Of a stretch of 64,000 bases of DNA, positions 21,248 to 57,870 are shown piece after piece. The translations under genes were made by a program, and so were the position numbers. The notes under the pieces are model-generated. The model was not told the origin of the DNA. It saw only the letters and a list, made by a program, of their open reading frames with translations, and did not search any database. The stretch spans positions 70,001-134,000 of the forward strand of contig CAUYUJ010012625.1 in NCBI GenBank assembly GCA_963575745.1. Direction: 5' to 3'. Source of the DNA: Prorocentrum cordatum (lineage: Eukaryota > Sar > Dinophyceae > Prorocentrales > Prorocentraceae). Numbering within the stretch: position 1 is the stretch's first letter; every line of letters starts with the position of its first letter.

Positions 21248-21258
21248 CTTGAGCCAAA
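21248..21258 (-). other. Truncated spliced-leader remnant
   Basis: The minus strand reads TTTGGCTCAAG, identical to the last 11 bases of the conserved dinoflagellate spliced leader. It lies 52 bases upstream of the inferred ATG of the coiled-coil gene and on the same strand. Genomic leader remnants at gene 5' ends are known products of cDNA recycling in dinoflagellates. The match is short, so chance is not excluded. Confidence 0.45.
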
Positions 21259-21420: not shown

Positions 21421-21566
21421 TTTTCAGCGTCGCTCATATGGCCGCGAAATGCGGTGGGGACACCCAAGAACAACACGGCCTGGGACCCTAGCATCTCGAG
21501 GGATGCGTCCGGCATCCGACTGAAGGAGGCTCGAGCAGTCGACGGCGGCGGCAATGGGCGACAACA

Positions 21567-21709
21567 TCTTGACAGCAATAAACGATGCCGATCCGTTTCA
21601 CTCTCAAATCCTCAGCGCCAAAACGGCTTCAGTACAGTGCATGGGTGAGAGCGGGAAAGGGATATGTAGGGGAGGCACGGAAGGGCGTCGGGGGCGATAT
21701 ATCTCGACA
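21567..21709 (-). repeat. 3' LTR (143 bp)
   Basis: Minus strand starts TGTCGAGATATATCG and ends GCTGTCAAGA. It is identical by eye to 27253-27395. It begins with the usual TG but does not end with CA. It contains GTTTATTGCTG near the 3' end; no clear polyadenylation signal was recognised. Confidence 0.93.
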
Positions 21710-21718
21710 CCCCTCCTC
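21710..21718 (-). promoter_or_regulatory. Polypurine tract
   Basis: GAGGAGGGG on the minus strand immediately precedes the TG of the 3' LTR, as expected for priming of plus-strand DNA synthesis. It is short. Confidence 0.65.
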
Positions 21719-21757
21719 GAGCCTCTTGCCGAGGGCGCACGCGCAGCAGGGCAGGCG

Positions 21758-24700
21758 CTAGCCACGATGCCCAAAGCAAAACGCACACGCTCCGCGGCTC
21801 ACGAGACGGCGCCTCCGCGACCTCAACCCGCGGCAGGCAGCGTCGGCGTGGACCGCACTCTCGACACTGTCCGTGTGGTGCAGCATGCGCACCCCCTGGC
21901 CCAGCACCCGAGCGCAGATCAGGCAACCGCTCCTCGTCACCAGCGGGTGATGCCGATCGCGCAGAGCCTGGCAGTTCGGACTCGAGTGGATCGAGGTCCC
22001 GACCGTGTCCAGGTGGAACAGCAGCACGCCCCTGCCACGCGGCTCCGACGGCTCCCGACATTGATCGCGGGGAGCGTCGGGTGCTGGAGGCGGATCGGGT
22101 TCTGGCTCCGATCTGCCCCTCTCCGAGCTCTCACTGGGCTGACCCTTGGAGCAGCCCTTGCCCGTCCGTCCTGCAGCTGACCTCGGGAGGTATAGGCACA
22201 TGCACCAGCCGCACCAGCACAGCATCACGCCCACGAGCATGCAGAGGACCGACCAGACCACCACGATCGCCAGGTGTGGGTCGGGTCCGCCGTCGGGCGT
22301 GGCTGGCTGGGCCTTCACGCCGTTCACGAGGACCATGAACGTCGCCAGGTACCGTGCTCCTCGGGACGCGCTCAGGGCAGCCACGATGCCATTCCCGAGG
22401 GCGTCAATCGGGACCAGACCAAGCATGGTGCGGCACTTCTCGAGCGCACCCTTCCCCAGGAACTTCGTCCCAACGTCGGGGAGGTTCTCCGTGCCCTTTA
22501 CCTTCGCGATCTTGATCTGGCCCGTACCGACCAGCTGCTGGAGCCATAGCCACTTCACCTCCAGATGTCGTAACCTGCCGAGTCCGCGCCGCGAGGCGAT
22601 CGCGATGGCGGAGGACGCGTCGCACTCGATCTCCAGCGACGTGTCGAAGCCCATGAACTTGACGAGCTCCCTCACGTACAGCATCTCCGCCGCCAGCTCC
22701 ACGGCCCCCAGGTACTCGGCCTCAGGGCTCGACTGGGCGAGCACTGACTCCGTGCGGGCGTAGGCACTGACGACCACCCCGCACCACCGCACGATCCCGC
22801 ATGCTGTCGACTTGCGGGTCTCGTGGCATCCCGCCCAGTCCGAGTCGGTGCTACCTCGGATGCGCTTGTAGTCCTTCGTGGAGCGGTGAACCATGGCCAG
22901 GTCGACCGTCCCGCTGAGGTAGCGGAGGAGGTGCTTCAGGCACTTCATGTCGGCCACCCTCGGCTCGCTCAGCCGACGACCGAGCTCCTTCAGCGGGTAC
23001 ATCACGTCCAGCCTCCGCGGGATCGCGTACTGGATCTTCCCGCAGCACCTCCTGTACAGCGAGTGCTCCTCGCTGTTGAGCGGCTGCTCGGCTCCGGGCG
23101 GGGTGAGGTCTGGCCTGACCCCAGCCGTGCCCACAGGCCTGCAGCCCAGCATCCCCGCCGCGTCGAGGATGCTCTCGACGTACCCGGGCTTGCTCTTCTC
23201 CACGATCACGTCCCCGAACCTCTGCAGCGACGAGCCGAGGTAGATCACGGGGTTCTCGCCCAGGACGTACCGCCCCTTGATCGCGAGGTGCTTGGCCAGC
23301 TCGTCGAAGAACTCGTCGAGCACTCCCCGCGTGGGACCTGAGGCAAGAGGGTCGTCCGTGTGGACCACGACCCTGATGCCCTTCTCGATGTGATGGTATA
23401 TAGTGGGCTCCGCCTTGCAGACCTTGAATCCAATCCCGACCACGATGCTCTCCAGGAACTCCTGGAATCGTAGCGCTGCCTCTCTGAGCCCATACAGAGA
23501 CCTCTTCAGTCTCCACACGTATCCATGCCCCATGCCGTATTCGGGCGGCGTCTCCACGTAGATCTCGGTGCCGTCCTTCACGGGCGTGTGCATGAACGCC
23601 ACGCTGAAGTCCGTTGTCACGATGACGTGCTTGAGCATCAGCGCCGCCGCCATCAGCACGCGCACAGCCTCCGTGCGCGGGGTGCAGGCGAAGAAATCCC
23701 CCGCCTGGGCGTCCCTGAACTGCTTCACGACGAACCTGCTGCGGACCCCCTCACCCTTCTTGCGGTGGCACCACCTCGTGCCCCAAACCTTCATGTCTCG
23801 GGGTCGCGCCACGACCTCACCGACGCCGAGGGACTCCATGAAGTTCGCCTCCCTCTTGATCCCCTCGCGGACGGCGTCGGGGTCGAGGCACTCACCGTCG
23901 TCGTCGTCGTAGTACGCCTCGCTCAGCAGCTCGAAGTTGGGGTCGAGCTCGCACGGCGTGCAGAGCTCGGTGTCGTCGGGGTAGCCCATCAAGTGGGCGA
24001 CGGACACGCTGCCAACCTTCACCGTAGCAATTCTCCTCTCCTTGTGCGCCTCGCCTTCCGCAGGCGCCTCATCGCCGGCCCGCTTGCCAGCCGAGCTCTC
24101 AGGCTCCTCGACTGCTGCACGCTTCACCTCAGGTGCAGCTGCGCTCTCTGCCGCGGCCCGCTTGCCACGCGGCTCGTTAGGAGGCAACCCCCTCCTCTCG
24201 AGACAGAAGTTCGAATGACGGTACGATGTGCCCAAGCATCCACTACAGCCTGGGGTAAACTCTCTTGACATCGGGTCTGGAAGCACTCGTGTAACTGGTC
24301 GGCCCCTCGGCCTCTTCGTGACGGGCTGTGGTGCGTCCTCGACGTCGTCCATGGCCTCGTCGCCGTCGGCAGCTGCCTCGGCGCCCCCTGGGTCCCCCTC
24401 CTGCGGCTCCTCGAACCTCACCTCCCCCTCCTGGGGGCCTGCCTGCCCCTCCTCGGGCGCGGCGTCCGCTGGTCGCGGAAGCCTGGCGGGCTGCGGGAGG
24501 TTGAGGTCGGGGGCTGGTCTGTCTGCCACTGGCGTGGATGCATTCGGCGCCTTCGTGTCGCTCGGGATGCCCTTCATGGCCAGGAGCAGCTGCTTGTCGT
24601 AGCGCTCGCTCTCCACGAGCCTCCGTGCGGACCTCGCCACGACAATGCCGTGCCTGGTGCCGCAGATGTGGGAGTCGTCCTCCAACGACCGCCCGAGGTA

Positions 24701-27172
24701 GATGCCGTATCCCCACGCGGATTCGAACTTGGCGGCGATAGGCCCAGGTTGCCTCCACATAACCGTCTCGCCGAGTGGTAGGACCTTCTTGGCATAATGC
24801 CTCTCGTGCTGACGCTCGTAGGACGTCTTGTAGTCGGAGCGGTGGATGAGGAAGCGATCGTGGGTCCACGATGCGTGGCGCACGATCCAGGCCATCAGGG
24901 GATGCCTCAACTCGATCACGATACCGTACTTTGCCCCAATGGCTCTCCTCCAGGTCCTCGTCATACCCTCGATGAACGAGTGGAACCTCTCCACCATGCC
25001 GTTGCTCCCCTTGCTCGTCTTCGGCGTGTACCTGAAGGTCGCGTTGTTCCCGATGTCCCTCGCGACCTTGGCCGCCACGTCCTTGGCCGCATTCTCGGGG
25101 TCGCACTGGATGATAACCTTCTCAAACCCGAGCTTCTCCACGTACCGCTTGAGACACTTCAGGAGAAACAGGTCTCCCCCACCCTTCGCCTCGCACCATG
25201 CCGAGGACGTAGAGTGGTATACGTTGTCAATGGCATTCATGACTGGGTGCACTTTCTCGTCACGATGCGTCTTGCCGAACATGTAGTCGATCTGGATCAC
25301 AGGCACACCCTCTACCTCTTTGATCCTCTCATGCCTGTCGTCCAGGCCTCGCCCCCCTACACAGTCCGCGCACCACGCTGCATATGGACAGTGGAGGGCC
25401 TCGTGAGCCTCCCTCTCGGCTCGTGTCGGCTCCCTTGGCGCCGTCATCACCGTAGCCTCGGGCCTGACTTCTTGCGCCGTCGGCTGGTCCACCTGCGCAG
25501 CGATGTACTCCTCGGGGACGCCCGTCGCCGTGTTGTAGACGACCAGGCCGTCCGCGCCGATCTTGGTGCCGACGTAGCTCATCACCGTCGCGCGCAGGAA
25601 GAACAGGCCGAGCCTCCTCTTCAGCCCAAGCCGCGATCGCCCGCTCCTCGAATCCCGCGTGATCGAGGGTGGGCCCGTCGAGCCTGGCGGTGGGAACTCC
25701 ACCCCAGCTCCTGCCTTGTTGATGCTGTTGACACTCAGGATCGGTTGCGTCACCTCCGTGACGTGGAATATCACACTGATCTCGTCGTCATTCTGCGTCT
25801 TCAAGTTCACCTGCTTGTCGCCGTAGTGCTTCAGGGAGGCCCCGTTGGCGACCCTGATCTCCAGCCTCCTGTCCTGCATAGTGGGGTAGTCGGGGAAGTC
25901 GCTGGGCCCGCACACCGACTTGTTGGCGCCAGTGTCCACCATGATGTCAACCGTCTGGCCAACTCTTGTTCCGCTCGGGCCCTCAAGCGTGCCGACGGCG
26001 AAGATCCACGCAGCGCCCTCGCACTCGGAGCACTGGAGGGCGTTGGCACTGATGGAGGCGCTGGCGTCCTCGTGGGAGGAGGCCGCACCCTTCTCCTTCT
26101 CGTTGGTGGTGTCCCAGCTCGCCCACTTCTCGTCCCAGGTGTTGCCGTCCCAGCCACTGCCGTCCCAGGTGCTCACGTTGTGGATCTTGGCGTAGCAATC
26201 CTTCTGTTTGTGCCCCCACTTGCCGCATCGTCCGCAGTGTCCCTGGAACTTCTTTTCTCCGCCGGCGATGCCACCGCCGCTGTTCCTGTCCTTGCCCTTA
26301 CCTCTGGTGTCGTTGCCTTTGCCCTTGCCTTTGCCTTTGGCCTTGCCGTATCCTCTTCCGCCCTTGCTGTTGATGGCGCCGATGTCCATCGGCGCAGGGC
26401 CACCAGGCATGGACTGCTTCGTGAGCAGGAAGTCTGCGGCCACCTTCTTGATCCTCGCCCACTGGATCTCCTCCTTGGGTGTCCCCAGCAGTACGTGGTT
26501 CCTCAAGGCCTCAGGGGCTCGTGCGATCAGGACCGCCGAGCGGATGTTGTCGCTGAGGGCCTCGCTCGCCAGCTTCTCGTACTCTTCGATCGAGATCTCG
26601 AACTTCGCCATGTTGTCGAGGAAATCCGCTTCTCCGCCAAAGTCGAACTCCAGCACCCTCATCAGTCTCGATAGAATGCTGCCCATGTTCTGAGGGTCAT
26701 ACTGGGAGCTCAGCCTGCGGTATGCCTCGAATCCGTCTTGGTTGCTGACCTTGCGGATGATGCCGAGCGGGGTGCCCTCCGTATACATCGTGAGCTGGTA
26801 GAACAACGACTGCGCCATCTGTCTCCACTCGTCGTCGTAGTTGGCGTAGTTCAGCTGGTTCTGGCTGTACTCGACCTGGGTCATTCCCTCTAAGCACTTC
26901 CGACTCTGGTTGCCGATGTACGCCTTGAACTTGAACGCCCAGTCATGGAAGTCTAGCTTCCTCGTGTTGTCGAAGGTCGGCGGCTTCCCTTTGTCTCCGA
27001 TAATCGCGTTGGCGAAAGCCTTCGTCGACTGCTGCCGACTCGCTGCATCTGCGTCGGCTCGCTCCGTCTGGAGCCCTGTGATCGTCTGGTTCTGGTTCTC
27101 GACCGTCTCCATCAGTCGGCCGAGCTCTCGCTTCGTCTCCAATAGCTCCTGTGCGAGAGCCTCCACGCTCAT
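21758..27172 (-). CDS. Copia gag-pol polyprotein with unusual C-terminal tail
   Basis: One frame of 1804 residues from ATG at 27172; a GTG seven codons upstream is also in frame but less likely. Order: copia-type gag; zinc knuckle C313-x2-C316-x4-H321-x4-C326; aspartic protease DTGA with D413; integrase zinc site H590, H594, C602, C605 and catalytic D629, D691, E728; reverse transcriptase with D1188 and the pair D1273-D1274 (HTDD in place of the usual YVDD-type motif); RNase H with TDSDWAG around D1443/D1445. All catalytic residues expected for reverse transcription and integration are present. After RNase H come a hydrophobic segment (about 1634-1662) and two modules with identical spacing, H1720/H1729/C1734/C1750/C1753 and H1766/H1775/C1780/C1796/C1799. 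This tail is not part of a standard copia pol. No frameshift separates gag from pol. Confidence 0.95.
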   Translation of the reverse strand: MSVEALAQELLETKRELGRLMETVENQNQTITGLQTERADADAASRQQSTKAFANAIIGDKGKPPTFDNTRKLDFHDWAFKFKAYIGNQSRKCLEGMTQVEYSQNQLNYANYDDEWRQMAQSLFYQLTMYTEGTPLGIIRKVSNQDGFEAYRRLSSQYDPQNMGSILSRLMRVLEFDFGGEADFLDNMAKFEISIEEYEKLASEALSDNIRSAVLIARAPEALRNHVLLGTPKEEIQWARIKKVAADFLLTKQSMPGGPAPMDIGAINSKGGRGYGKAKGKGKGKGNDTRGKGKDRNSGGGIAGGEKKFQGHCGRCGKWGHKQKDCYAKIHNVSTWDGSGWDGNTWDEKWASWDTTNEKEKGAASSHEDASASISANALQCSECEGAAWIFAVGTLEGPSGTRVGQTVDIMVDTGANKSVCGPSDFPDYPTMQDRRLEIRVANGASLKHYGDKQVNLKTQNDDEISVIFHVTEVTQPILSVNSINKAGAGVEFPPPGSTGPPSITRDSRSGRSRLGLKRRLGLFFLRATVMSYVGTKIGADGLVVYNTATGVPEEYIAAQVDQPTAQEVRPEATVMTAPREPTRAEREAHEALHCPYAAWCADCVGGRGLDDRHERIKEVEGVPVIQIDYMFGKTHRDEKVHPVMNAIDNVYHSTSSAWCEAKGGGDLFLLKCLKRYVEKLGFEKVIIQCDPENAAKDVAAKVARDIGNNATFRYTPKTSKGSNGMVERFHSFIEGMTRTWRRAIGAKYGIVIELRHPLMAWIVRHASWTHDRFLIHRSDYKTSYERQHERHYAKKVLPLGETVMWRQPGPIAAKFESAWGYGIYLGRSLEDDSHICGTRHGIVVARSARRLVESERYDKQLLLAMKGIPSDTKAPNASTPVADRPAPDLNLPQPARLPRPADAAPEEGQAGPQEGEVRFEEPQEGDPGGAEAAADGDEAMDDVEDAPQPVTKRPRGRPVTRVLPDPMSREFTPGCSGCLGTSYRHSNFCLERRGLPPNEPRGKRAAAESAAAPEVKRAAVEEPESSAGKRAGDEAPAEGEAHKERRIATVKVGSVSVAHLMGYPDDTELCTPCELDPNFELLSEAYYDDDDGECLDPDAVREGIKREANFMESLGVGEVVARPRDMKVWGTRWCHRKKGEGVRSRFVVKQFRDAQAGDFFACTPRTEAVRVLMAAALMLKHVIVTTDFSVAFMHTPVKDGTEIYVETPPEYGMGHGYVWRLKRSLYGLREAALRFQEFLESIVVGIGFKVCKAEPTIYHHIEKGIRVVVHTDDPLASGPTRGVLDEFFDELAKHLAIKGRYVLGENPVIYLGSSLQRFGDVIVEKSKPGYVESILDAAGMLGCRPVGTAGVRPDLTPPGAEQPLNSEEHSLYRRCCGKIQYAIPRRLDVMYPLKELGRRLSEPRVADMKCLKHLLRYLSGTVDLAMVHRSTKDYKRIRGSTDSDWAGCHETRKSTACGIVRWCGVVVSAYARTESVLAQSSPEAEYLGAVELAAEMLYVRELVKFMGFDTSLEIECDASSAIAIASRRGLGRLRHLEVKWLWLQQLVGTGQIKIAKVKGTENLPDVGTKFLGKGALEKCRTMLGLVPIDALGNGIVAALSASRGARYLATFMVLVNGVKAQPATPDGGPDPHLAIVVVWSVLCMLVGVMLCWCGWCMCLYLPRSAAGRTGKGCSKGQPSESSERGRSEPEPDPPPAPDAPRDQCREPSEPRGRGVLLFHLDTVGTSIHSSPNCQALRDRHHPLVTRSGCLICARVLGQGVRMLHHTDSVESAVHADAACRGLRSRRRRLVSRGACAFCFGHRG

Positions 27173-27232
27173 CGCGGCCGTCAGCCGCCTCACAGGCGGG
27201 CAGGCTGATCTCCGTGGATCTGCGGGTCAGTG

Positions 27233-27252
27233 TCACCCGCGCTCCGCTGCCA
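27233..27252 (-). promoter_or_regulatory. Primer-binding site
   Basis: Directly after the 5' LTR the minus strand reads TGGCAGCGGAGCGCGGG. TGG pairs with a tRNA CCA end, and the next seven bases imply an acceptor stem AGCGGAG, similar to initiator methionine tRNA but with one mismatch at the discriminator base. The exact primer tRNA is not established. Confidence 0.7.
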
Positions 27253-27395
27253 TCTTGACAGCAATAAACGATGCCGATCCGTTTCACTCTCAAATCCTCA
27301 GCGCCAAAACGGCTTCAGTACAGTGCATGGGTGAGAGCGGGAAAGGGATATGTAGGGGAGGCACGGAAGGGCGTCGGGGGCGATATATCTCGACA
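27253..27395 (-). repeat. 5' LTR (143 bp)
   Basis: Same sequence as 21567-21709. The minus strand runs TGTCGAG... to ...TCAAGA, directly followed by the primer-binding site. The promoter of the element should lie here, but no specific element can be pointed to. Confidence 0.93.
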
Positions 27396-27544
27396 CAACA
27401 GCTGGTCCAAGGACATGGTCGTCCATGGGAGATTTTCCCACCGACCCCCTTGGTATGATGGCGTGCCCAGTGAGAAAGAAGAGAAGACGAACCACCGGCA
27501 TTGTCAGAAGTAGGCAAGCCAGAACGCCTCGCCACTGCTTGAAT

Positions 27545-55140: not shown

Positions 55141-55259
55141 AGGTCGGGCATGTCCTCGGACTACAGGCGGATGTCCGAAGAACACCGCAAACAGTGGAGA
55201 AATGCCCCCCATATCATCGAACCGATTCGAAGAATCGTCCCCCAGACTATTTCTTTGCT

Positions 55260-55280
55260 ATTTCAACATGTTTCCTCCTG
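55260..55280. repeat. Target-site duplication, left copy (21 bp)
   Basis: ATTTCAACATG followed by TTTCCTCCTG. It is identical to 57531-57551 and belongs to the family 1 host sequence. Confidence 0.93.
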
Positions 55281-55320
55281 TTTTTTTTTTTTTTTTTTTT
55301 TTTTTTTTTGTTTTTTTTTT
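55281..55320 (-). other. Poly(A) tail of the retrocopy
   Basis: The plus strand has 29 T, one G, then 10 T, directly after the left target duplication. On the minus strand this is a poly(A) tail at the 3' end of the inserted cDNA. Confidence 0.93.
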
Positions 55321-55948
55321 CCCGTCCGGAATTCAACGGGCGCCTCTCCCGAATCACCACCAGCCTCCTGCGCAGCCACCGGGCCCACCTGCGCACAACT
55401 CAATGTGCATCGACCAGGCTGTACAGACATAGTCTCGGCCAAAATGGCTCTATACTGGGCACGACGAAAGTGCAGGAAAAAAACAGCAGGAAGATACGTT
55501 CAGGCCTAGATGTGGACGGGTGGAAAAGCACAAGAGGGGCTACGGCTACGCGGAGCGGAGCACGGGGTCAGCGATGCGCGGACGAGGAGCCCAGAACGGA
55601 GAGGGGGAAGCAGGAGGGACCAGCGACTAAACGACTAAACGACCACAGGAATTGGCCGACTCCTGTGCTGAGAAAGCAGGCGTCCTAATAAGACCCCGGA
55701 CGCGGCTCACGAAACCCGACGAAGATCAGGATGAACATGTGGTTATGGTAGATGATGAAGCCAGCGGGCGGCCACGCACGCCGAGGTAGCGACGACGGGC
55801 GGTCCGAGCCTCCGCTCGGAGCGAACCGCCACCGGGCCCAGCGAAGCAGCCAGCGCCCACCCGCCCAGAACAGCACCCCTCCGCCGAAGAACGTGATATG
55901 CTGTCCAGTGAACGTGATATGCTTTAGGAGGCAACTTTAACCCAAGTT
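55321..55948 (-). other. 3' UTR of the GT92 retrocopy
   Basis: About 628 bp between the stop codon and the poly(A). No repeat family member was recognised in it, unlike the surrounding spacers, which fits derivation from an mRNA. Confidence 0.7.
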
Positions 55949-57433
55949 CTACGCAGGAGACCAATCCGTCGGGCTGCAACCCATATCAGATTCCCTCATG
56001 AGCGCGCACAGCTCGGCCCTGACGTCGTCCACCTGCACGTCGAAGAAATGATCCCTCACTAGGCTACTCCCAGGCACGTCCGGCCGCAATCTAATATGCG
56101 CGAACGTGGCGATGGCGCCCGGCCCCGTGTGCGGCTTCGCACAAGTTGTACATGCCCTCATGTGTGGTGGAGTCCCGCAATGTAGAGGATAGTGCACCCA
56201 ACCGTTCACCACTCGCTCAGGCCGCATGATCGGTTTTCTGAGCCCCCCGGGTATCCCCCCCACATGGGTATGATTCTCGCGCAACTGGGCTTCTATCAAG
56301 AGCTGCCTTTCACTTCCCGGCTTCTTCCACATTGTCCAAAGATAATATTCAAAGTCGGCCTCTGTGCAATTGGCGAACGAAGCTTGTGCAATGCCGTACA
56401 TTCGAGAAGGGATGTCCGAATATGGTATCAAATACTCGTCGAAATCCAATGAGACGACGAACTCGCTCATCCCTTTGAATCTGTTCAAACAGTCATTGAT
56501 GAACACTTGTTGTTGCATGCGCTGATAAAAATGACCACATGGAGTTTCAAATCGCAAATCATAAACAGTATCGGTACTCTGTGCGTCATCATCGACCAAC
56601 AAGATGGTAACAAGCCCGCGACTCACAAAGGAGGAGAGCAATCTCATCAGATGGCTCCGTCCACTCCGACGAAGATACACGACCATCTGGGAAGCGCCAA
56701 AGCCGAGGTGATAGACAAACGACTGCGGCAGCTGGTGGACCGCAAGTCTCGACGGGGGCGTCGCATAGCAAAACGTGATATCGTACGGTTTGTTCGGCAT
56801 CGGCAACAAGAACGGACGGTGACAATCTGTGATGCTGGCCACGGAAGTTCGATTAGCGTCGACCACGTCGAAACTAATGCAGGTTGTGGGCCCGGCACTG
56901 CGATTCGCCCACGCGGCCGCCTCCGCGCTGGGGAGCGTCGCGTACCACAAGGAACCGCTTGGCTTGTAAAATTGAGCGGTTTCACCAGAGCCGTACACTA
57001 CATGATGAACACTCGCTCGGGCTGCATGACGAAGTTCTGTTAGGCGACTTGGTGCTGGATGTCCACCTCCGAGGCGCCGTTGATTATCACCTGCGAGCAA
57101 AGACAACGCCAATAGGGGTGTCGAAACACCAAACTGCTTATGAACTAATACCGCTGAAAGAACAGGTATATTGGTAATCGTTCCGTTTACCTTGACAGGT
57201 ATGAGACCACGAACCTTCAAAGTCGCAAGCACCCTGTCATCTCTGAGATTTGACTTGGCCTGCGCATAAACGCCCACCCAACTTGCAGGATGCCCATGCT
57301 CAGCCACCCGAACTAGAGGAAGCGATCCGAATCTGCCCAGCACAAGCGCATAAACCATGCCCGCAGAAAGGGCTATGAGCCATGCACACAGAAAGGGCAG
57401 CGCGACGGAGGGTAGGCGGGGCACCAGCGGCAT
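55949..57433 (-). CDS. Glycosyltransferase family 92 (DUF23-like) protein
   Basis: 494 residues, single exon, ATG at 57433, stop at 55949. The N-terminus has one hydrophobic segment (about residues 8-32) after a short basic tail, as in a type II Golgi or ER membrane enzyme. The catalytic part has the family signature: QVFINDCLNRFKGMSEFVV (N313 in NDCL), then SLDFDEYLIPY with the metal-binding DxD-like D330/D332 and E333. Further Cys- and His-containing stretches (HCGTPPHMRACTTC) follow. GT92 enzymes transfer sugars, often galactose, to glycans; the acceptor here cannot be told. The gene lies in a retrocopy, so it arrived without its original promoter. Whether it is transcribed is unknown, but the frame is complete, which suggests a young or functional copy. 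Confidence 0.88.
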   Translation of the reverse strand: MPLVPRLPSVALPFLCAWLIALSAGMVYALVLGRFGSLPLVRVAEHGHPASWVGVYAQAKSNLRDDRVLATLKVRGLIPVKVNGTITNIPVLSAVLVHKQFGVSTPLLALSLLAGDNQRRLGGGHPAPSRLTELRHAARASVHHVVYGSGETAQFYKPSGSLWYATLPSAEAAAWANRSAGPTTCISFDVVDANRTSVASITDCHRPFLLPMPNKPYDITFCYATPPSRLAVHQLPQSFVYHLGFGASQMVVYLRRSGRSHLMRLLSSFVSRGLVTILLVDDDAQSTDTVYDLRFETPCGHFYQRMQQQVFINDCLNRFKGMSEFVVSLDFDEYLIPYSDIPSRMYGIAQASFANCTEADFEYYLWTMWKKPGSERQLLIEAQLRENHTHVGGIPGGLRKPIMRPERVVNGWVHYPLHCGTPPHMRACTTCAKPHTGPGAIATFAHIRLRPDVPGSSLVRDHFFDVQVDDVRAELCALMRESDMGCSPTDWSPA

Positions 57434-57455
57434 TGTGAAGAAGCGTTGAAATCGG

Positions 57456-57476
57456 TTTAGGGCAAAATGGCTTCAG
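57456..57476 (-). other. Degenerate spliced-leader copy C (oldest)
   Basis: The minus strand reads CTGAAGCCATTTTGCCC and then TAAA: about 15 of 21 positions match the dinoflagellate leader, including AGCCATTTTG. It lies in the 5' UTR 22 bases before the ATG. Confidence 0.6.
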
Positions 57477-57501
57477 ACACCGTGCTCCTGAGCTACATAG
57501 G

Positions 57502-57522
57502 CTTGGGCCAAAGTGGCTTGGG
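57502..57522 (-). other. Degenerate spliced-leader copy B
   Basis: The minus strand has AGCCACTTTGGCCCAAG; 17 of 21 positions match the leader over the full copy. It directly follows copy A without a gap. Confidence 0.85.
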
Positions 57523-57530
57523 CTTGAGCC
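57523..57530 (-). other. Truncated spliced-leader copy A (newest)
   Basis: GGCTCAAG, the last eight bases of the leader, abuts the target duplication at the 5' end of the retrocopy. Incomplete first-strand synthesis would leave such a truncated leader. Confidence 0.8.
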
Positions 57531-57551
57531 ATTTCAACATGTTTCCTCCTG
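57531..57551. repeat. Target-site duplication, right copy (21 bp)
   Basis: Identical to 55260-55280. It continues into the right end of the family 1 host. Confidence 0.93.
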
Positions 57552-57870
57552 TAAGGGGACATGTCCGACTTAAGGGTAGCCCTCGCGTTCTGCTGCTACC
57601 TGAGGCCGATCGAGTGCCTCCGCCTGAAGGGTAGGGACCTGGTGCGGCCGTCGCCGGCGGCCGCACCGCAGCACGCGTCGTGGGGCCTCTTGCTCCACGA
57701 CCTCCTGGCGGGTCCCGAGAACATGCACCACTACCGCCACCTCCGTTCACCCTCCCTCCTATACGTTCCTCTTCCCCTCCTCCTTCCTGGGAGAGGAAGA
57801 GGGTGAAGGAAGGGTGGCGGTGTATATTTTTTGGGGCCCGTACTCCCGTCACAGGTTCCTGGGGAGAATG

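Follow-up and report, generated by a model that had tools for sequence, protein, structure and literature searches.

According to the accessible text of a review (PMC6050394), mRNA recycling has affected roughly one-fifth to one-quarter of the genes of dinoflagellates, by way of an element that is unknown, Ty1/copia being considered more likely; in the available part of another study (PMC3942190), retrotransposon-like clusters among expressed sequence tags of Oxyrrhis all matched Ty1/copia. A paper from 2025 (PMC12014239) ascribes recycling to retrotransposons generally, with long terminal repeat (LTR) and non-LTR elements both abundant, and the words 'target site' find no match in the portion of its text that is available. 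In the titles and abstract openings of the open-licence papers listed by literature searches, no dinoflagellate retrocopy tagged with a spliced leader (SL) was found reported with target duplications, target-primed reverse transcription (TPRT), non-LTR elements or microsatellites. Here we describe a 2,250-base block, with an intact GT92 gene, on the minus strand of a 64,000-nucleotide stretch of Prorocentrum cordatum DNA (C12623:70001-134000, hereafter the window). This block is very probably a recent processed retrocopy of the trans-spliced mRNA of a gene on contig C17961, made by a long interspersed nuclear element (LINE). The mechanism and the expression of the retrocopy, and likewise the LINE type, the splicing of the introns and the identity of the template, are what we infer from these comparisons, all of which rest on one assembly (4,128,499,153 bases, 4.13 Gb, in 21,875 contigs).

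The locus is a young example of the DinoSL recycling already known. Going by the accessible text of the two accounts (PMC6050394, PMC12014239), it resembles DinoSL retrogenes in being a recycled mRNA with tandem leader relics, the outermost of which is intact, in its intact frame and in having likely passed through several rounds. Unlike in those accounts, the insertion described here can be followed from a source with intron-like inserts and a candidate enzyme to both borders, with A-tract and duplication, and to the empty site, whereas their available sections report no target duplications and leave the machinery open or favour copia. Processed pseudogenes of mammalian L1, as described in the accessible parts of PMC7692494 and PMC2912911, are likewise intronless, with an A-tail and duplications at both ends; unlike them, the copy described here has a 5' leader, and the source of the candidate enzyme is itself leader-tagged. 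The LINE-1-like retrocopies of dicots are a parallel from non-mammals, for which LTR agents were favoured before an L1-like mode was proposed, and they differ in that the available text mentions no spliced leader (PMC4838847).

Borders, gene and target of the block

The features of the locus, in window coordinates, are the following.

55143..57574, plus strand: host element, a family 1 repeat resembling a miniature inverted-repeat transposable element (MITE) and split by the retrocopy; outer limits approximate, from the flank joining and the inverted ends
55260..55280, no strand: target-site duplication on the 3' (poly(A)) side, identical to 57531-57551
55281..55320, minus strand: retrocopy A-tract, which reads T29 G T10 on the plus strand and corresponds in position to a genome-encoded A34 of the source
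55281..55884, minus strand: tail of the 3' untranslated region (UTR), which in the source resembles the end of an inserted, 5'-truncated retrocopy of another gene, gene X
55949..57433, minus strand: intact 494-codon GT92 frame with its stop codon (PF01697, E 7.5e-17; JGI protein P0002 99% identical)
56550..56553, minus strand: GATT, where the source carries a 29.3-kb intron-like insert
57450..57453, minus strand: GATT within the 5' UTR, interrupted in the source by an intron-like insert of 11.8 kb
57456..57476, minus strand: older spliced-leader relic, 15/21, also in the source
57502..57522, minus strand: older spliced-leader relic, 17/21, also in the source
57523..57530, minus strand: newest spliced leader, last 8 nt, missing from the source
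57531..57551, no strand: target-site duplication on the 5' (leader) side, identical to 55260-55280

The block (55281-57530) lies between direct repeats which agree at 21 of 21 positions; counting the first T of the T-run would make them 22 bases long. Chance matches to either repeat end reached at most 13 bases in 200 simulated 8-kb flanks. The T-run, which reads as poly(A) on the minus strand, adjoins the first repeat directly, and at the other end the dinoflagellate SL is represented on the minus strand by its final 8 nt, GGCTCAAG, which abut the second repeat. An earlier note, made from the sequence alone, had described the identical repeats, a poly(A) tract directly at one end and leader sequence directly at the other. 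All three descriptions hold, with the refinement that the outermost 8-nt stub alone is new, the two inner relics being present in the source already. The relic at 57502-57522 is the top leader match of the window. In 30 simulated windows, matches of 17/21 arose at a rate of 0.03 per window and matches of 15/21 at 0.97, so the relic at 57456-57476 is notable solely for its location; the window also holds an unrelated 16/21 match at 21248 and a second 15/21 match at 22544. Genome-encoded leader relics upstream of a gene are the mark of a DinoSL retrogene, and their presence here suggests that the block belongs to that class.

The GT92 frame comprises 507 codons from stop to stop and 494 from its ATG, open and intronless as the earlier note had stated, and includes a Glyco_transf_92 domain. 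Protein searches returned P0002 and P0003 of the JGI set as sole matches (one search scored 7,999 candidates sharing most words), and no GT92 relatives were found in IMG/VR contigs. P0002 shows three residue differences from the source and three from the copy, and therefore further alleles or copies exist. P0003 (504 aa) agrees fully with P0002 in its initial 160 and final ~90 residues and diverges from it between these; it may be a mosaic paralogue, a product of gene conversion or an assembly chimera.

Removal of the insert and one repeat had been said to restore a normal family 1 element, and the relatives of that element bear this out. In the masked window, the joined flanks gave 14 nhmmer matches above the inclusion threshold, on both strands, at 10 distinct places. 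The junction was aligned at 11 places, namely these 10 and one just below the threshold, and nine of them cross it with 15-19 of 25 columns identical, the exceptions being c9461, which is diverged (11/25), and c14529, which has a deletion. An empty site can thus be recovered by paralogy, as far as aligned relatives can indicate one. The joined host ends pair at 22 of 29 positions as terminal inverted repeats of ~29-30 bp, and six relatives tested also have inverted ends (21-31 identical over 27-39), which makes the host a MITE-like element; a short dispersed element with terminal inverted repeats is what the name would require, and the description of the target is refined in this way. The insertion point is in the right inverted repeat.

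The window copy was not inserted in a microsatellite, although its target-site duplication contains TTTCCTCCTG. The nick reads CTGT/AAGG when the shared T is assigned to the duplication, and the other readable sites differ. Mammalian L1 has a T-rich nick motif, and the site here differs in lacking one. The window has a G+C content of 59.5%, and the accessible text of PMC10666404 gives 59.7% for the P. cordatum genome; an Rfam scan of the window at the gathering threshold gave no match.

The probable source gene on C17961 and its 3' tail

The block was searched against the whole assembly (40 matches scored out of 86 candidates). Besides the window, the sole scored matches reaching the coding part were three blocks on C17961 (10089-11360, 40681-41584 and 53333-53408). 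This is probably the intron-bearing parent that the earlier note had proposed to look for: joined in silico, the three blocks give 2,242 nt, as does the copy, and the source reading frame is intact. Before the A-tract the two differ by three substitutions in 2,201 nt (0.14% difference, 99.9% identity), namely R129S, I289T and one in the 3' UTR, in line with the recent copying claimed; five further differences lie at or inside the A-tract. A tandem array of the block, named in the earlier note as one of the findings that would speak against a retrocopy, was looked for and not seen among the 40 scored matches, and no second copy of the block was found within the window.

That a DNA-level duplication or an assembly artefact mimics a retrocopy has in its favour that a single assembly is the sole basis. 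Nevertheless, a tandem duplication or mis-join would hardly yield, all at once, a copy free of the two inserts precisely at GATT, a new leader, an A-tract, 21-bp repeats and an uninterrupted target, and we regard it as extremely improbable.

The two inserts of the source, 11.8 kb (intron 1, in the 5' UTR) and 29.3 kb (intron 2), have a GATT repeat at both limits of each. Their 3' ends are related over ~320 nt (68%), and the end GAGACCCACAAGGGGTCG[GT]CG followed by GATT or GACT is present in three copies, in introns 1 and 2 and near C17961:9274, downstream of the gene; in the window, no copy of this motif was found with up to three mismatches. Intron 2 also has a 17-nt inverted repeat (94%, E 0.005), while the inverted-repeat matches in intron 1 are weak (best E 0.094). 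Introners with direct-repeat borders have been described for dinoflagellates, as far as the available text of PMC7789003 and PMC10666404 goes, and the source inserts appear to resemble them in their 4-bp direct repeats and related 3' ends. They differ from introners in their lengths, in their GA...CG borders and in that one contains a full-length LINE-like element.

The leader junction reads CCCCGAAA followed by CCCAAGCCACTTTGGCCCAAG in the source and GGCTCAAG followed by CCCAAGCCACTTTGGCCCAAG in the copy; in short, CGAAA before CCCAAG is replaced by GGCTCAAG before CCCAAG. Because the outermost stub is missing from the source, it was probably added by trans-splicing. It corresponds to the final 8 nt of the SL, so that the copy lacks ~13-14 of the 22 leader bases. 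The inner relics are also in the source, which is thus probably itself an older recycled gene. The source reads AA before this junction, which leaves three options: a mutation of the acceptor, an unusual acceptor, or an allele or paralogue not seen here as the template.

The last of these options belongs to a different explanation, in which an intronless allele or paralogue, since lost or missing from the assembly, served as the template, and the GATT-flanked inserts are transposons that C17961 acquired afterwards. The AA in place of AG, the non-canonical insert borders with their 4-bp direct repeats, and the further alleles or copies to which P0002 points all speak for it. On the other hand, copy and source are so close (0.14%) that the 41 kb of inserts, one of which contains a LINE, would need a very recent origin, and direct-repeat borders are what the accessible descriptions of dinoflagellate introners report (PMC7789003, PMC10666404). 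We consider a lost template unlikely.

The 3' end of the source has a history of its own. The last 604 bases of the copy recur whole or partly on five contigs at 98.2-99.7% identity: whole on C20421, nearly whole on C11115, as block positions 33-306 on C19700, and as positions 230-625 on C5335 and C20589, which then carry another 3' end. At four of the tail loci, the similarity extends upstream for up to 2.6 kb (99.1-99.9% identity). Gene X is a 734-codon frame on C20421 (154000-172400 region), for which no match was found in Pfam. Its copies begin with a tandem leader on C20421 and a leader stub on C5335, whereas the copy on C11115 is 5'-truncated and that on C20589 reaches the contig end. 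Some of them were inserted in a manner like that of the window copy, ending in A28 with a 15-bp duplication on C19700 (also 5'-truncated), in A8 with repeated flanks on C11115, and in A7 with a repeated TGATGG microsatellite on C5335. In the source, the X tail, which has an A34 tract of its own, is flanked by a 5-bp duplication, CTTCG. Judging from these borders, the 3' UTR of the source resembles a 5'-truncated X copy that was inserted there. Overall, gene X copies are ~99% identical, some SL-tagged and some 5'-truncated, and differ in their 5' and 3' UTRs. Parts of the tail, often around positions 276-544, are also dispersed at 72-93% identity, several copies ending near GGGAGAGGCG.

It is conceivable that this X-derived tail is a recognition signal, through which a LINE would preferentially copy the GT92 mRNA. 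Young X copies terminate in this tail too, those on C19700 and C11115 with repeated flanks, and its older relatives are dispersed; nevertheless, the 3' UTR of the single full LINE found is unlike it, and no other strong match to the tail exists in the 47.5-kb source region. Since the repeated tails are copies of gene X and the LINE tail differs, the idea has lost ground, and we find it quite unlikely.

Several observations weigh against a LINE-made retrocopy of the C17961 mRNA. The A34 of the source is encoded in the genome, so that the A-tract of the copy could have been templated and by itself is no proof of an mRNA tail. The SL-tagged X copy on C20421, which ends in A92, showed no duplication of at least 7 bases in the 500 bases checked. 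The readable nick sites have no clear common consensus. Moreover, the putative introns of the source have GA...CG borders with GATT repeats and not GT-AG, and the source has AA in place of the expected AG acceptor before the leader junction.

The candidate LINE machinery

Intron 1 of the source holds a 7,419-bp LINE-like element (C17961:53185-45767) in the same orientation as the gene. It starts with a complete 21-nt SL and ends in A8, with an 18-bp duplication directly at both ends, which was found at one of the four A5+ runs tested. Its first open reading frame (ORF1, 360 codons) has a weak RanBP zinc-ribbon match (E 0.01), and its second frame, open over more than 2,000 codons, matches in order Exo_endo_phos (E 1.4e-3), RVT_1 (1.6e-3) and RNase_H (4.1e-4), all below the Pfam cut-off. 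Among the 27 homologues listed, 20 are named as P. cordatum proteins, two of them at 97%, and seven distant ones are annotated with RVT_1, endonuclease or RNase H; the scanned part of ORF2 had no match in PDB by sequence at E up to 1. In intron 2, around C17961:40353, there is a second complete SL with zinc-finger-like and reverse transcriptase-like frames (RVT_1 E 0.029), for which no duplication was found. When 187.7 kb were scanned for A7+ runs after which upstream sequence is repeated, five matches were obtained, all of at least 15 bases, and in the reversed control one of 11 bases; except for the window, this sample was chosen through the locus itself, and one of the five matches (C5335) is a microsatellite.

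An SL-tagged LINE with an A-tail and a duplication favours LINE-type TPRT, as the earlier note had proposed, over a Ty1/copia route. Integrase usually makes duplications of 4-6 bp. Neither these nor LTR sequence were seen at the block borders, which were read directly; the A-tract abuts a duplication of 21-22 bp, beyond the integrase norm, and the LINE-like element has the same border anatomy. That a Ty1/copia LTR retrotransposon packaged and copied the mRNA is argued for dinoflagellates in the accessible text of a review (PMC6050394). The window itself contains a copia-type element (21565-27396, a minus-strand frame of 1,822 codons, RVT_2 E 2.7e-23) with terminal repeats identical over 146 bp. 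Weighing the borders against these points, we judge the copia route very unlikely.

With the source inserts missing, the A-tract directly at the duplication, a duplication within the 7-25 bp expected and a LINE-like element in the genome, the block has several of the features by which a TPRT retrocopy would be recognized. An SL-tagged LINE with the same borders as the GT92 copy would be the simplest agent, and this family is the one we infer as its maker. In the proposed sequence of events, the three-exon GT92 gene would be transcribed and its two long introns removed, an SL would be trans-spliced to the 5' end of the mRNA, and the mRNA polyadenylated. The LINE machinery would then nick the family 1 MITE-like repeat, and reverse transcription, primed from the nick on the A-tract, would stop after no more than the 3'-terminal 8-9 bases of the 22-base leader, the insert finally being sealed with a 21-22 bp duplication.

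Spliced leaders at CCT and GGA microsatellites

Genome-wide, there are 14,218 complete SLs, among which there may be SL RNA genes, and 2,426 occurrences of the tandem leader GGCTCAAGCCATTTTGGCTCAAG; the reversed control is 0 for each. The first 30 tandem leaders in contig order were read and represent 28 distinct places, where the downstream 1 kb is mutually dissimilar at E up to 1e-20. Just before the leader, at least 18 of 24 bases belong to (CCT)n at 12 of the 28 places and to (GGA)n at two, the background rates being 1.5% and 0.47% of 21,276 positions, respectively. An A7+ run was found within 1.5 kb downstream at three of these 28 places, none with a duplication, and therefore this survey is uninformative on 3' ends.

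For all complete leaders the rates were taken from the minus strand alone, because plus-strand places are listed twice when two phases fit (raw counts, plus and minus: 2,317 and 1,495 for CCT, 735 and 575 for GGA). On the minus strand, CCTCCTCCTCC lies 0-4 nt upstream of the SL in 1,495 of 7,017 cases (21.3%) and GGAGGAGGAGG in 575 of 7,017 (8.2%), and the background for either repeat is 0.39% of positions, in a convenience sample of ~180 kb from the genome. The microsatellite bias of SL-tagged insertions is strong and points to the use of microsatellites as landing sites. At the presumed other end, the two strands have 68 and 38 instances of A12 with (CCT) directly after it, and 8 and 15 of the reversed pattern, overlapping starts being counted repeatedly on one strand of each pattern. 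An A-tract of this type lies on the same strand 6.5 kb downstream of the SL at C26:258925, one of 79 CCT-SL places listed, on contigs that held at least four listed A-tract places.

This pile-up of SL insertions at (CCT)n/(GGA)n recalls the target-specific non-LTR retrotransposons, some of which insert in microsatellites according to the available text of PMC4640811. Those elements use a restriction-like endonuclease, whereas the element described here looks APE-like, given its weak Exo_endo_phos match, and the microsatellite preference here, unlike theirs, is common to copies that need not be LINEs.

Taken together, the observation of the earlier note is confirmed and its interpretation supported. 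The locus is a near-complete case within one genome, from the probable source and its copy, through the fresh leader, the duplicated target sequence and the empty site, to an SL-tagged LINE-like element with the same borders. A broader reading, which in our view is evenly balanced between true and false, is that mRNA recycling in P. cordatum would be driven by APE-type LINEs with SL-trans-spliced RNA, which prefer (CCT)n/(GGA)n, and that cellular trans-spliced mRNAs would be copied in trans into the same type of site. Microsatellites would then be landing strips for thousands of SL-tagged copies, and source genes would carry such LINEs in introner-like introns, closing a cycle from retroposition to intron gain and back to retroposition. 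With leaders piling up at CCT/GGA microsatellites across the genome, it can be tested from sequence alone, in other dinoflagellate assemblies, which agent does the recycling.

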